In this document: positions 44,979-53,037 of the stretch, piece by piece
Numbering within the stretch: position 1 is the stretch's first letter
Layout: each line of letters begins with the position of its first letter
Source: Sphingobacteriales bacterium
Lineage (GTDB): Bacteria; Bacteroidota; Bacteroidia; Chitinophagales; Chitinophagaceae
Direction of reading: 5' to 3'
Length of the DNA stretch: 64,000 bases
Assembly (NCBI GenBank): GCA_004144175.1
Contig: SEFT01000001.1
Location: 1 to 64,000, forward strand
The notes under the pieces: generated by a model
What the model was told of the DNA's origin: nothing
The model's input: the letters and a program-made list of their open reading frames with translations, nothing else
The model's database searches: none
Made by a program: the position numbers and the translations under genes

Positions 44979-45005
44979 TATCAAAGGCTAAAATCCGGTT
45001 TGAGG

Positions 45006-45032
45006 TTTTGACTTTTTGACTTTTGACTTTAT
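45006..45032 (+). repeat. Solo TTTTGACTT-type repeat between nuoB and nuoC
   Basis: TTTTGACTTTTTGACTTTTGACTTTAT-like sequence, the same repeat type and orientation as the right arm (49621-49644) of the four-helix-bundle cassette. It ends 6 bp before the nuoC ATG, just as the other ends 6 bp before the nuoG ATG. It may be a solo scar. Confidence 0.7.
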
Positions 45033-46867: not shown

Positions 46868-47365
46868 ATGAAATTTTCGCAAGAGAAATTAGATAAGGCA
46901 AAAGAGATCATGGCACGCTACCCGGAAGGGAAGCAAAAAAGTGCGCTGATACCTTTGCTGCACATAGCTCAGGAAGAGAACAACGGCTGGCTGGACATCG
47001 CTACCATGGATTATGTAGCAGAGATACTTTCTATCAAGCCGATAGAAGTATATGAGGTAGCTACCTTTTACACGATGTTCAACCTGAAGCCTGTTGGTAA
47101 ATATGTATTTGAAGTATGCCGTACGGGGCCTTGTATGCTCAACGGCAGCGATCATATCATAGATTATATAAAAGACAAGCTGGGCATCAAAGAAGGTGAA
47201 ACTACTCCCGATGGAATGTTTACCCTGAAACCGGCAGAGTGCCTGGGCGCTTGTGGTTATGCACCTATGATGCAGTTGGGTAAGTTCTACCGCGAGCACC
47301 TGACGAAAGAAAAAGTAGACCAGATAATAGACGAATGCAGAAGAGGCGTAGCAATTGTTAACTAA
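46868..47365 (+). CDS. nuoE: NADH-quinone oxidoreductase subunit E
   Basis: 165 aa thioredoxin-like [2Fe-2S] protein. The cluster ligands are seen in VCRTGPCML and CLGACGYAP (C-x4-C and C-x3-C). ATG 46868 is preferred over the TTG three codons earlier. It works with NuoF at the NADH end. Preceded by a GGGG hairpin element; the next gene is a non-nuo gene starting 4 bp after the stop. Confidence 0.94.
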   Translation: MKFSQEKLDKAKEIMARYPEGKQKSALIPLLHIAQEENNGWLDIATMDYVAEILSIKPIEVYEVATFYTMFNLKPVGKYVFEVCRTGPCMLNGSDHIIDYIKDKLGIKEGETTPDGMFTLKPAECLGACGYAPMMQLGKFYREHLTKEKVDQIIDECRRGVAIVN

Positions 47366-47369
47366 GCCG

Positions 47370-47792
47370 ATGCGTACTGTTGTAACTATATTATTGCTCT
47401 TTATTTACAGTACTGTAATGACGCAAGCCGGAGCAGACGACGTTAGAAAGGCAATCACAGAATTGAATAAGGCATTACTGCAAAAGGATTCTGTGACGCT
47501 GAAGAAACTATCGCATGAGAACCTGACTTATGGCCACTCCAATGGGTGGATTGAGACAAGGCAGGACGTGATAGGTAATCTGTATAACGGTAAGCTGACC
47601 TATACTAAAATAGAACAGCAGGAACCGAAAATATGGATGGAAGGCAAAACGGCAACGGTAAGAAAGGATGCAACGGCGGCAATACTGCTCGATGGCAAAC
47701 CGATGGAACTGAAGCTACATGTGCTACAGGTTTGGGTGAAGACAAAGAAAGGCTGGCAACTGGTAAGCAGGCAGAGTGTGAAGTTGGGATAG
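47370..47792 (+). CDS. Exported NTF2-like (DUF4440-type) protein inside the nuo operon
   Basis: 140 aa from ATG 47370; a TTG upstream overlaps nuoE. Signal peptide to about residue 20 (STVMTQA), then an NTF2-like domain: AITELNKALLQKDSVTLKKL, ENLTYGHSNGWIETRQDVI, and the end VWVKTKKGWQLVSRQSVKL. Members are small periplasmic or catalytic scaffolds of varied role. It lies between nuoE and nuoF, which are normally adjacent, on the same strand. No functional link to complex I is known to me; probably an inserted passenger. Confidence 0.82.
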   Translation: MRTVVTILLLFIYSTVMTQAGADDVRKAITELNKALLQKDSVTLKKLSHENLTYGHSNGWIETRQDVIGNLYNGKLTYTKIEQQEPKIWMEGKTATVRKDATAAILLDGKPMELKLHVLQVWVKTKKGWQLVSRQSVKLG

Positions 47793-47852
47793 AAAATTAG
47801 AAGTTCATTAAAATTCAATAACAACCGAAGCATAAGCTTGGGTAATTATAAA

Positions 47853-47880
47853 AGAGCCCTGTTGGGTTTGGGATTGTTTT
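47853..47880 (+). repeat. Degenerate GGGG-hairpin element before nuoF
   Basis: GAGCCCTGTTGGGTTTGGGATT followed by GTTTT and the nuoF ATG: a weaker copy of the CCCC/GGGG-TTGGGG element seen before nuoE, nuoK and nuoL. Confidence 0.5.
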
Positions 47881-49233
47881 ATGGCGATCAAATTATTATT
47901 AGAGAACGCACACATTGAGGGAATTCGTTATTACGAGGCCTATCGCAAGAACGGTGGTTACCGTGCAGTGGAGAAGGCCTTCAAGATGACGCCCGATGAG
48001 ATAGTGGAAGAAGTGAAGAAGAGCGGCCTGCGTGGTCGCGGTGGTGCAGGTTTCCCTACCGGTATGAAGTGGAGCTTCCTGGCTAAGCCGGAAGGCGTTC
48101 CGCGTCACCTGGTATGTAATGCGGACGAATCAGAGCCGGGTACTTTTAAGGACCGCTACCTGATGGAGTTCCTGCCGCACCTGTTTATAGAAGGTCTTAT
48201 CATCAGCAGCTTTGCGCTGGGCAGCAATCTTACGTATATCTACATCCGTGGCGAGTATTCATGGATACCGGATATACTGGAGCAGGCCATACAGGAAGCA
48301 AAGAACAATGGCTGGCTGGGTAAGAACATACTAGGTAGTGGATTTGACTGTGAAATATATGTGCAACGCGGTGGTGGTGCCTACATATGTGGCGAGGAAA
48401 CAGCCCTGATCGAGAGCCTGGAGGGTAAGCGCGGTAACCCGCGTATCAAGCCGCCATTCCCGGCCATACAGGGTGTGTGGATGAGGCCAACCGTGGTAAA
48501 CAACGTAGAAACGATTGCCGCCGTAGTGCCGATCATCAATATGACCGGTGAGGAATACGCCAAAATAGGCATAGGCCGATCAACCGGTACCAAGTTGCTT
48601 TCGGTTTGCGGTAACGTAAATAAGCCGGGCGTGTACGAAATAGATATGACCATCTCGGTAGAGGAGTTTATCTATTCGGACGAGTACTGTGGCGGCATAC
48701 CCAATGGCAAACGCCTGAAGGCATGTATCCCTGGTGGTTCGTCCGTACCGATAGTACCGGCTAACCTACTATTTAAGACGGCTAAGGGTGAAACGCGCTA
48801 CATGAATTACGAAAGCCTGTCGGACGGTGGATTTGCTACCGGTACGATGATGGGTTCGGGTGGTTTTATCGTATTGGACGAAGACCAGTGCGTAGTGCGC
48901 CATACCATGACGCTGGCGCGCTTCTACAACCACGAAAGCTGTGGACAGTGCAGCCCATGCCGCGAAGGTACCGGCTGGATGTACAAAATACTGAAGAACA
49001 TAGAATACGGAAAAGGTAAGATAAGCGATATAGACCTGCTTTGGGATATCCAGCGCAAGATAGAAGGTAACACCATCTGTCCGCTGGGCGATGCCGCTGC
49101 ATGGCCCGTAGCCGCAGCCATCCGCCACTTCCGCGATGAGTTTGAATGGCACGTGCTGCATCCTGATGAGGCGCAGAAAAGGAATTTTGGGTTAGCGCAT
49201 TATGCAGATCCGCTACCAGTAGTGACTGCCTAA
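47881..49233 (+). CDS. nuoF: NADH-quinone oxidoreductase subunit F
   Basis: 450 aa, the NADH- and FMN-binding subunit: GRGGAGFPTGMKW, NADESEPGTFKDR (FMN/NADH site), RGGGAYICGEETAL, and the [4Fe-4S] motif ESCGQCSPCREGT with NTICPLGDA. Its stop codon TAA is the first three bases of the left inverted repeat of the following cassette. Confidence 0.97.
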   Translation: MAIKLLLENAHIEGIRYYEAYRKNGGYRAVEKAFKMTPDEIVEEVKKSGLRGRGGAGFPTGMKWSFLAKPEGVPRHLVCNADESEPGTFKDRYLMEFLPHLFIEGLIISSFALGSNLTYIYIRGEYSWIPDILEQAIQEAKNNGWLGKNILGSGFDCEIYVQRGGGAYICGEETALIESLEGKRGNPRIKPPFPAIQGVWMRPTVVNNVETIAAVVPIINMTGEEYAKIGIGRSTGTKLLSVCGNVNKPGVYEIDMTISVEEFIYSDEYCGGIPNGKRLKACIPGGSSVPIVPANLLFKTAKGETRYMNYESLSDGGFATGTMMGSGGFIVLDEDQCVVRHTMTLARFYNHESCGQCSPCREGTGWMYKILKNIEYGKGKISDIDLLWDIQRKIEGNTICPLGDAAAWPVAAAIRHFRDEFEWHVLHPDEAQKRNFGLAHYADPLPVVTA

Positions 49234-49644
49234 GTCAAAACTCAAAAGTGAAAAGCTAAAAGTGGGTAATGACATCAAATACCGCTGTTATCAGTTTTCA
49301 ATAAAAATGATAAGGTATTTGAAAAGCAAGAACTGGGATACTTTTAGCATGGTGGCTGCAAAACAAGTAATGCGTTCTGCAATGTCTGTAGGTGCAAATG
49401 TGGTGGAAGCTGCTAATAGTTCTTCGAGGATTGAGTTTAAACGGTATTATGAAATAGCCTTAAAATCCAGTAATGAGACGAAATACTGGTTTTGCATCAT
49501 AAGGGATGGATTTGAAGTGAAAGATGAAGTTTTAAAGGAGTTGTTGAAGGAATGCGACGAGATATCTAAAATATTGGCATCCTCCATTCTGACAATTAAA
49601 GCGAGTAAATAATTTTTTGGTTTTGACTTTTAACTTTTGACTTA
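49231..49644. mobile_element. Candidate 414-bp insertion cassette with inverted repeats
   Basis: The arms 49231-49254 and 49621-49644 are inverted repeats of 24 bp matching at 21 positions (TAAGTCAAAA.T.AAAAGT.AAAA). Between them lies only one gene, for a four-helix-bundle protein. A further copy of the arm is found alone before nuoC. No transposase is encoded, so movement would need something in trans, or the four-helix protein itself. Calling it mobile is inference from the repeats and the operon context. Confidence 0.5.
49262..49612 (+). CDS. Four helix bundle protein (23S rRNA IVS/S23 family)
   Basis: 116 aa, all helical. The pattern VAAKQVMRSAMSVGANVVEAANSSSRIEFKRYYEIALKSSNETKYW is the family core (RSAxSxGANxxEA, then IALKxxxETxYW). 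The start is a GTG at 49262; the next in-frame ATG (49307) would cut helix 1. Relatives are encoded in intervening sequences of 23S rRNA genes and resemble the Avd accessory proteins of diversity-generating retroelements. No function in complex I is known. It sits between nuoF and nuoG inside inverted repeats. Confidence 0.88.
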   Translation: MGNDIKYRCYQFSIKMIRYLKSKNWDTFSMVAAKQVMRSAMSVGANVVEAANSSSRIEFKRYYEIALKSSNETKYWFCIIRDGFEVKDEVLKELLKECDEISKILASSILTIKASK

Positions 49645-49650
49645 TATATC

Positions 49651-50736
49651 ATGTCTGAAGTACAGAATTTTAAAGTAACGATTGATAATATAACGCTCGA
49701 GGTACCACCCGGTACTACGATACTGAATGCGGCGCGCATGATAGGTGGTGAGGTGACTCCCCCTGCCATGTGCTATTATAGCAAGCTACAGGGCAGCGGT
49801 GGTAAATGCCGTACCTGCCTGGTAGAGGTAAGCAAGGGTTCGGAAAAAGACCCCCGCCCGATGCCGAAGTTGGTAGCCAGCTGCCGCACTACCGTGATGG
49901 ATGGAATGGAAGTGAAGAACATCACTTCGGAGAAGGTGCTGGACGCACGTAAAGGTGTAGTGGAGATGTTGCTGATAAACCACCCGCTGGATTGCCCTGT
50001 TTGCGACCAGGCCGGTGAGTGCCATCTGCAAGACTTGAGCTACGAGCACGGAGGCTCGGGTACACGCTACGAATTTGACCGCCGCACGTTTGAGAAGGAA
50101 GACATAGGTGAGTATATATCCCTGCACATGACCCGCTGTATCCTTTGCTACCGCTGTGTGTACACAGCCGAGCAACTTACGGAGCGCCGTGAGCATGGTG
50201 TGCTGGAGCGTGGCGATCATGCCGAGATCAGCACACTGCTGGGCAAGTCGCTGGATAACGAGTTCATAGGCAACGTAATAGACGTATGTCCCGTAGGTGC
50301 GCTTACCGATAAGACATTCCGCTTTAAGAACCGTGTATGGTTTACCAAGCCGGTAGATGCACATTGCAACTGCACCAAATGCAGCGGTAAAGTAAGGCTG
50401 TGGATGCGCGGAGATGAAGTGTTCCGCGTGACGGCCCGCAAAGACAAATGGGGCGAGGTGGAAGAATGGATCTGTAACGACTGTCGCTTCCACAAAAAAG
50501 ATGTGAAAGACTGGACTATAGAAGGTCCATCGAAGATAGACCGCCACAGTGTAATAGGTCAAGGCCACTACGTAGGGCTTAAGAAGACGCCTATACTGAT
50601 AGATAAAGTGATAGGTAAGAACCCTAAAATGCTGATGGATATACACGATGTGAGTGACGTGAACAAGCCTGAGATACACCTGTCTCAGATACAAGGCCCG
50701 GCTCATTCGGATGATTTCCAGAAGAAAGACAAGTAA
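49651..50736 (+). CDS. nuoG: Short NADH-quinone oxidoreductase subunit G
   Basis: 361 aa, far shorter than the 700-900 aa of proteobacterial NuoG. Present are the N-terminal [2Fe-2S] domain (MCYYSKLQGSGGKCRTCLVEV), the His/Cys [4Fe-4S] motif (HPLDCPVCDQAGECHLQD), a second [4Fe-4S] (CILCYRC and DVCPVGALT), and only the first part of the molybdopterin-type domain (CNCTKCSGKVR, CNDCRF), which ends soon after. The large catalysis-like domain is missing. A short NuoG appears usual in Bacteroidota, so it is probably functional. Confidence 0.93.
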   Translation: MSEVQNFKVTIDNITLEVPPGTTILNAARMIGGEVTPPAMCYYSKLQGSGGKCRTCLVEVSKGSEKDPRPMPKLVASCRTTVMDGMEVKNITSEKVLDARKGVVEMLLINHPLDCPVCDQAGECHLQDLSYEHGGSGTRYEFDRRTFEKEDIGEYISLHMTRCILCYRCVYTAEQLTERREHGVLERGDHAEISTLLGKSLDNEFIGNVIDVCPVGALTDKTFRFKNRVWFTKPVDAHCNCTKCSGKVRLWMRGDEVFRVTARKDKWGEVEEWICNDCRFHKKDVKDWTIEGPSKIDRHSVIGQGHYVGLKKTPILIDKVIGKNPKMLMDIHDVSDVNKPEIHLSQIQGPAHSDDFQKKDK

Positions 50737-52910: not shown

Positions 52911-52934
52911 ATCCAGCCCTGGCCTAGAGGGAAA

Positions 52935-53037
52935 GCCCCCTAGCCCCTAAAGGGGGAATCAGGTAGAAAATAAATTTGATAACCTTCTTAGTCAATATAA
53001 CTAAGAAACAAAAAAAGCCCCTCTAGGGGTTTGGGGT
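52935..53037. repeat. Pair of facing GGGG-hairpin elements before nuoK
   Basis: GCCCCCTAGCCCCTAAAGGGGG (52935-52956) is an inverted version of GCCCCTCTAGGGGTTTGGGG (53017-53036), which abuts the nuoK ATG after one T. The AT-rich 60-bp spacer between them has no gene. The pair looks like a small MITE-like unit and could fold into a long hairpin. Confidence 0.65.

Follow-up and report, generated by a model that had tools for sequence, protein, structure and literature searches.

A nuoF-nuoG spacer element with an S23 gene between inverted heptad arrays resembles 23S rRNA intervening sequences

Introduction

To our knowledge, S23 proteins are widespread and structurally solved, with no function assigned to them. 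We likewise know of no accepted origin for the 23S rRNA intervening sequences (IVSs), nor of a partner protein for the intergenic heptamer repeats that have been reported several times.

The sections of PMC4990558 that describe the Coxiella burnetii IVS give it a 28-bp terminal stem, with three GACAGAT heptamers and one degenerate copy ahead of the ORF, and have RNase III cleaving at the first of these repeats. Earlier proposals, that the IVS transposes or that its ORF is required for mobility, are cited there by the authors. The same sections describe the ORF as decaying and the S23 crystals as pentamer rings. A resemblance between PF05635 and Avd is noted in a passage of PMC10053308. In the relevant parts of PMC2817692, a RAYT gene lies between two cognate inverted REPs, and repeat and protein co-evolve; REPs are more abundant where a RAYT is present, and orthologous genes keep inverted but changed repeats. 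Intergenic heptamers, often in about four units, are reported in the passages of PMC4692102 on Xanthomonas (GGGAATC) and Nostoc (GGGGA(C/T)T), with 70 and 75 cases of inverted pairs for the Xanthomonas heptamers. TAACTGA heptamers of Beggiatoaceae are described in part of PMC4679880.

Here, we describe an element in a respiratory operon that shares with the Coxiella IVS an S23 ORF in sense and a terminal inverted repeat. The two are close in size, with 414 nt for our element and 428-444 nt for the IVS. The GACAGAT heptamers occupy the inner side of the left IVS stem and read AGATGAC in the register used here.

Results

Layout of the Element

The window, the whole 64,000-nt stretch of DNA analysed, contains the following features at and near the nuoF-nuoG junction.

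49231..49644, plus strand: whole element, consisting of left arm, S23 gene and right arm (direct reading)
49231..49261, plus strand: left arm, tandem heptads in AGTCAAA register (sequence comparison)
49262..49612, plus strand: S23 (23S rRNA intervening-sequence-protein) gene, 116 aa (profiles and fold; putative start)
49614..49644, minus strand: right arm, heptad array in inverted orientation (sequence comparison)
44999..45029, minus strand: weaker arm of AGTCAAA type in the nuoB-nuoC spacer (arm model, E 1.7e-4)
47881..49233, plus strand: nuoF, left flank, intact (named by nuo operon position and similarity)
49651..50736, plus strand: nuoG, right flank, intact (ORF reading)

The element is 414 nt long, and the spacer between nuoF and nuoG is otherwise only 6 nt. 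nuoF terminates with TAA at 49233, nuoG begins at 49651, and the S23 ORF probably opens with the GTG that directly adjoins the left arm. The two arms, 49231-49261 and 49614-49644, are 84% complementary across 31 nt, with the consensus AAGTCAAAAGTnAAAAGTnAAAAGCTAAAAGT of AGTCAAA-like units. The first-pass annotation had described a four-helix-bundle gene in a 414-bp unit with inverted repeats, a nuoF stop codon made by the repeat, and an insertion that breaks no nuo gene. Rereading bears this out: the outer 24 positions match at 21, the TAA is formed by the first three bases of the left arm, and nuoF and nuoG are both intact. A DUF4440/SnoaL-like ORF lies elsewhere in the operon, at window positions 47355-47792 between nuoE and nuoF.

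The inverted-repeat score around the S23 gene was 18.5. Arm-like sites were absent from all five first-order Markov resamples of the 64-kb window. The arms pair with each other in the predicted RNA fold; folding of the whole element was not better than that of shuffles (z -0.51), and Rfam gave no match within 47800-50000. The insertion site lies between nuoF and nuoG, outside any 23S rRNA gene, and no transposase, nuclease or reverse transcriptase (RT) is encoded inside the element. Its ends resemble TTAA/TAA, which in the diverged and short spacers of the 14 genomes compared is indistinguishable from the arm or the stop codon, and a target-site duplication was not demonstrable in these spacers.

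Identity of the S23 Protein

The ORF product matched PF05635 (S23) with 67.4 bits against a cut-off of 33.8 and TIGR02436 with 76.7 bits against a cut-off of 24. Its AlphaFold model (pLDDT 93.9) had the S23-family structures 2rld and 2gsc as top PDB matches. Profile scores over the curated cut-offs and the fold together place the protein in the S23 family. It is a four-helix bundle with no HUH/Y1 domain or recognisable nuclease.

The model also resembled Avd, a protein of diversity-generating retroelements (DGRs), in 4dwl_E (TM 0.77/0.81, but E 0.18) and Avd in the DGR ribonucleoprotein structures 8ub7 and 8ube. This likeness favors reading the locus as a DGR relic or satellite with S23 as its Avd, a reading made extremely improbable by its surroundings, as the gene adjoins nuoF and nuoG and no RT. 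Both RT matches in this genome lie on contigs C6 and C7, away from the element, and 8 of the 14 genus genomes lack a PF00078 match, including the arm-rich G003, G009 and G006. An RT as the driver of the element was rejected on the same distribution.

Matched Inverted Arrays around S23 Genes

From the order, 63 S23 loci were taken, and 59 remained after removal of two at contig ends and two duplicates. In 47 of the 59, left and right arms matched better than the 95th percentile for arms exchanged between elements, and in 21 better than the 99th. The named sample comprised the best 80 of 569 confirmed S23 loci, with 78 usable; by record titles, these were mostly Bacteroidota, joined by Ignavibacteriae, Planctomycetes, Acidobacteria, Lentisphaerota, Nitrospirae, SAR324 and others. 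In this sample, 54/78 loci were above the 95th percentile and 21/78 above the 99th. Each element's inverted array has its own unit. Both flanks of S23 genes peaked at lags of 7, 14 and 21 nt, and the 7-nt periodicity was absent from windows 800-900 nt away. About one-quarter of the S23 genes had no clear inverted repeat. On these comparisons, the layout of matched inverted arrays is general among S23 loci.

The same nuo spacers commonly contain arrays with no gene as well as other hairpins (CCCCTTTAGGGG), as if the arrays were spontaneous AT-rich tandem repeats of operon spacers in which S23 is merely located. This explanation is very improbable. The arm match within elements is far above that of arms swapped between elements, the period depends on the S23 clade, and GC-rich cyanobacterial arrays such as AGGGAGT exist. 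Controls are near zero as well: scores above 13 were found in none of the 52 other window genes and, among 58 further ORFs from the S23 loci, in two, one being a second S23 gene and the other lying inside a different repeat.

S23 was present in 45 plasmid records, and five of these were inspected, which gave three distinct cyanobacterial elements with arrays. One, with an AGGGTGT array, is found on both plasmid 1 and plasmid 2 of Calothrix NIES-22, in a shared segment that is near-identical over about 1.9 kb and similar over about 3 kb. The pair was rejected as a case of recent transposition, the element lying within this longer shared segment. A Nostoc edaphicum plasmid has an S23 gene with an AGGGAGT array between nrdB and nrdA, and the Anabaena sp. 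90 plasmid (L306:1486-1854) one with AGGTGAC arms between cas6 and cas4 of a type I-D CRISPR operon. The S23 gene of plasmid L304 showed no clear array. The functions of S23 neighbors across loci include nuo, fad, sdh, met, nrd, cas and rfb-like genes. A recurrent home site was observed in one context cluster of about 26 loci together with L159, L150, L163 and L195, where S23 lies in fatty-acid-oxidation-like neighborhoods; in the four annotated cases it lies between 3-hydroxyacyl-CoA dehydrogenase and thiolase or between thiolase and acyl-CoA dehydrogenase.

Orientation was scored in the 148 of 163 elements with both neighbors at most 400 nt away. The left gene, S23 and the right gene were co-stranded in 135 of them, and S23 was antisense between co-directional genes in 3. 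Either insertion proceeds via transcripts, or sense insertions alone are expressed and survive.

The Repeat Unit Follows the S23 Lineage

A FastTree phylogeny was built from the 116 S23 proteins whose arms have a clear period, which is seven in 83 and eight in 33. Unit length changed 7 times on this tree against 28.7 times when shuffled, and none of 500 shuffles was as low. In the 'IATSK' clade, whose proteins end in ...IIATSK-like motifs, 8-mers were present in 24 of the 27 elements that have an inverted repeat (7 more elements have none), compared with 9 of 91 for other S23s (Fisher 1e-14). Period-7 left arms have units starting with AG in 68 of 83 cases and with CT in 13, most 8-mer units are AATNNGNN-like, and arms contain 4.1 units on average. 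Arm similarity was correlated with protein identity in pairs below 75% identity, with Spearman values of 0.25 overall, 0.27 for period 7 and 0.37 for period 8, reached by none of 1000 permutations in each class. The S23 elements as a set thus show co-evolution of the protein with its flanking repeats, as is characteristic of RAYT/REP.

Concerted change of arms at orthologous sites was also considered. The arms of one element were more alike than those of orthologs in 85 of 102 pairs, a result given little weight because of matched-arm selection, dependent pairs, doubtful orthology and a reverse trend in the closest pairs: from about 76% identity upward, own-arm likeness was mostly reversed.

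There is strong comparative support for the view that S23 and the flanking arrays form one system. The arms are very probably cognate to S23. Repeat units vary with the S23 lineage in both length and sequence, a correlation of the kind that recognition of the repeats by the protein would be expected to leave. On this basis, the arms would be recognised by the protein, and we predict with some assurance that S23 binds them.

Gene-less Arms in This Genome and Genus

A sequence-only arm model gave at least 22 matches in this genome (G000), of which two belong to the element and 20 are further sites. Arms of this type are thus present elsewhere in the genome. PF05635 detected a single S23 gene among the matches listed, the one in the window. 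The first-pass annotation had proposed to ask whether other four-helix-bundle genes of the genome are flanked by the repeat; no second S23 gene was there to ask it of, and in relatives most S23 genes do have arms, with a unit specific to each. Five arm sites are inverted pairs: the window element, C15:107334-107540, C24:217617-217817, C24:298603-299254 and C70:57324-57419. The remaining sites are single or have a decayed partner. By inspection, the interiors of the paired sites look unrelated. Arm sites are intergenic and often a few bases from a start or stop codon. The pair at C24:298603-299254 (L010:1004-1655) is a 652-nt unit with GTCAAAA arms around a 168-aa ORF, perhaps another cargo, for which no Pfam family was found.

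Arm numbers were compared across 15 genomes of the genus, scoring the best 150 candidates per genome. GTCAAAA arms numbered at least 22 in G000, 10 in G009, 9 in G003 and 5 in G014, the genomes with an S23 gene in such arms. The other genomes had at least 12, 4, 3 and 1, with 0 in seven. Only 8 of 1365 relabelings were as extreme as this split, a statistic that ignores kinship among genomes of one genus, which are not independent. For AATGCGG 8-mer arms, the three genomes with S23 in such arms had at least 13, 11 and 5 and the other twelve 0-2, with 1 of 455 relabelings as extreme; 8 of the 13 matches of G009 fall within 14 kb of one contig. Both arm models were built partly from the tested genomes, and the elements' own arms are included in the counts. 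With this reading of the numbers, arm copy number is higher in genomes of the genus that hold the cognate S23. G006 has 12 GTCAAAA arms and no cognate S23 among the matches listed, and S23 is missing from 4 of the 15 genomes, including G004, which retains 3 arms. Of the seven nuo spacers of G023 that contain hairpins, six match an S23 encoded in G023 itself. G018 has 14 S23 genes, and the arms of the seven compared matched none of its three nuo hairpins.

Terminal inverted repeats and MITE-like gene-less copies are what a passive DNA cassette would have if it were moved in trans by an ordinary transposase, such as a Y1/REP-associated one, with S23 as cargo that does not touch the arms. Y1 transposase genes occur in 10 of 14 searched genomes. 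We consider this improbable: cargo would not explain why unit length and sequence track the S23 lineage, the sense bias (135 vs 3) also argues against it, and GTCAAAA arms occur in G004 and G011, where Y1 had no match. A Y1 transposase as the driver was rejected, being missing from 4 of the 14 genomes, two of them with arms.

History and Mobility

The nuoF-nuoG junction was resolved in 14 genomes of the genus. The S23 gene is intact in G000 and G009 and broken in G003, the right arm stands alone in eight genomes, G007 and G012 lack any arm, and G013 has just TTTTGACTT, the last bases of the arm. Fixation in all relatives, which the first-pass annotation had named as evidence against its cassette, was not observed, with the gene in 3 of 14 genomes and one copy broken. 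At the same junction in other genera, G017 has an S23 gene and G021 a broken one. A related S23 lies between nuoK and nuoL in G003 and G014. The near-sisters G009 and G014, with 91-93% identity across six nuo genes, differ at both junctions: G009 has S23 at nuoF-nuoG and 3 nt at nuoK-nuoL, and G014 has a 29-nt solo arm at nuoF-nuoG and S23 at nuoK-nuoL. Array pairs that lack a gene are gained and lost as well: in G003 the nuoD-nuoE spacer measures 73 nt and contains such a pair, and in G002, G005, G007, G009, G012 and G014 it measures 11-14 nt. The nuo-operon S23s formed a single clade with a weak tree support of 0.76, from seven rows of which two are short pieces.

In orthologous S23 pairs, dN/dS was 0.04-0.16 in 8 of 13, the other 5 being saturated at synonymous sites, and the nuoF-nuoG pair of G000 and G009 had pN 0.15 and pS 0.78. 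By this measure, the S23 coding sequence is under purifying selection, and the gene at the nuo site is probably old. At least one neighbor was common to 39 of 48 S23 pairs with at least 70% identity and to 17 of 18 with at least 80%. Sequence comparison shows a clear move: the S23 at the fadB-fadA junction of Pedobacter terrae (L150) has a 79%-identical counterpart at the sdhA-sdhB junction of a Mucilaginibacter (L153). No recent near-identical multi-copy element was found among the S23 loci compared. Purifying selection and the neighbors common to close S23 pairs suggest that the elements are slow. The mobile cassette of the first-pass annotation stands as an S23 unit that lacks a transposase and ends in matched inverted repeats. 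It does not stand as one that is recent or moves freely, given S23 in the nuo operons of other genera, purifying selection and close pairs sharing neighbors. We regard the unit as probably mobile on an evolutionary scale.

The same selection, together with long vertical persistence at one site, would suit a host post-transcriptional regulator of the TRAP/CsrA kind, with the heptads as RNA binding sites, its own gene autoregulated and apparent mobility being gain and loss of sites. Sense orientation (135/148) and the solo right arms retained just upstream of nuoG in 8/14 genomes fit this as well, as do the pentamer rings of S23 crystals in the section cited above (PMC4990558) and the proposal, in the part of PMC4679880 on Beggiatoaceae, that TAACTGA heptamers ahead of start codons have a translational role. 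Against it, related genomes show fast turnover of units and target sites, S23 is missing from 4/15 genomes of the genus including one with 3 arms, and the neighbors seen (nuo, fad, sdh, met, nrd, cas, rfb-like) show no common function. A regulator is rather unlikely.

Other Repeats in the Same Spacers

In G015 and G023, the nuoF-nuoG junction holds a GxxExxY gene with a different inverted repeat (L045, L040). GxxExxY/PDDEXK_3 genes (L040, L045, L084-L113) have inverted repeats of their own, of ACACAGAT, ACACAGAG and ACGCAAAG types, and 19 of 32 loci were above the 95th percentile of swapped arms. They were rejected as part of the S23 system and kept apart because they show no 7-nt period and a weaker sense bias (14/26). 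They may represent a parallel class of elements whose protein is nuclease-like. Hairpins similar to CCCCTTTAGGGGTTTGGGGT lie directly upstream of many nuo start codons in the genus, for example in the window nuoJ-nuoK spacer (52911-53037). A further repeat, ACAAGAGTGCGACGCAAC, brackets an ORF in L167:3641-4157 and recurs in the nuoG-nuoH spacers of G018 and G023.

Discussion

Our findings point, with a probability of roughly 0.6, to an S23 element of the IVS class that sits in an mRNA spacer, not in 23S rRNA, and has a RAYT/REP-like organisation. The S23 protein would recognise the arms flanking its own gene, as the lineage-linked arrays suggest. Recognition might occur at the RNA level, to which the near-exclusive sense orientation in operons and the pairing of the arms into a terminal stem point less firmly. 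Host RNase III would cut the terminal stem as in rRNA IVSs, leaving the nuoF and nuoG mRNA whole. Most tentatively, the arms could spread slowly in trans to other intergenic sites and so yield gene-less arm pairs and solo arms, in the manner of RAYT transposases and REPs. That movement or function goes via RNA falls a little short of even odds. RNA-mediated movement of the S23 element is compatible with the data, which support any particular mechanism of movement weakly.

A bolder proposal, which we think unlikely, puts S23 at the heart of an RNA-level mobile class. A pentameric ring would clamp four to five units, AGNNNNN or, for the 8-mer clade, AATNNGNN, on the arms of the transcribed element, and the RNA shielded in this way, or its DNA copy, would be inserted in sense into the spacers of other transcripts or into rRNA. 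IVSs, the heptamers of Xanthomonas, Nostoc and Beggiatoaceae, and the operon-spacer hairpins of Bacteroidota would then all be products of one kind of element.

If the arms are cognate to S23, the orphan protein, the origin of IVSs and the intergenic heptamers become one testable system, consisting of a protein with a known ring, a predicted binding unit and a 7- or 8-nt rule for each lineage. IVS-like insertions would then be general in bacterial mRNA and not a curiosity of rRNA.

Comparison with Known Systems

The first-pass annotation had suggested an undescribed class of element. A link of intergenic S23 genes with heptad inverted repeats was indeed not found in the open literature, as distinct from subscription papers and preprints; the claim of a new class is tempered by an architecture that matches that of 23S rRNA IVSs. 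The IVS sits in 23S rRNA, whereas our element lies in a respiratory-operon mRNA spacer, where excision by RNase III is a prediction. The Coxiella ORF is described in the cited part of PMC4990558 as decaying, in contrast to the S23 gene of the window, which is under purifying selection.

The Xanthomonas, Nostoc and Beggiatoaceae heptamers fit the pattern of S23 arms and, by analogy, may be such arms; the passages of PMC4692102 and PMC4679880 that describe them make no mention of S23. Avd of DGRs has the four-helix-bundle fold in common with the window S23 but adjoins an RT, whereas the window gene has nuo genes as neighbors. The likeness to MITEs lies in the gene-less arm pairs of varied length; unlike MITEs, these end in heptad arrays, the interiors of the copies look unrelated, and no parent transposase is known.

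RAYT has a Y1 (HUH) transposase, whereas S23 is a four-helix bundle with no recognisable catalytic domain. REPs are single palindromes and RAYT evolves fast, whereas S23 repeats are tandem heptads around a constrained coding sequence. RAYT/REP is nevertheless the closest to the S23 elements in its way of working, with a protein gene between cognate inverted repeats.
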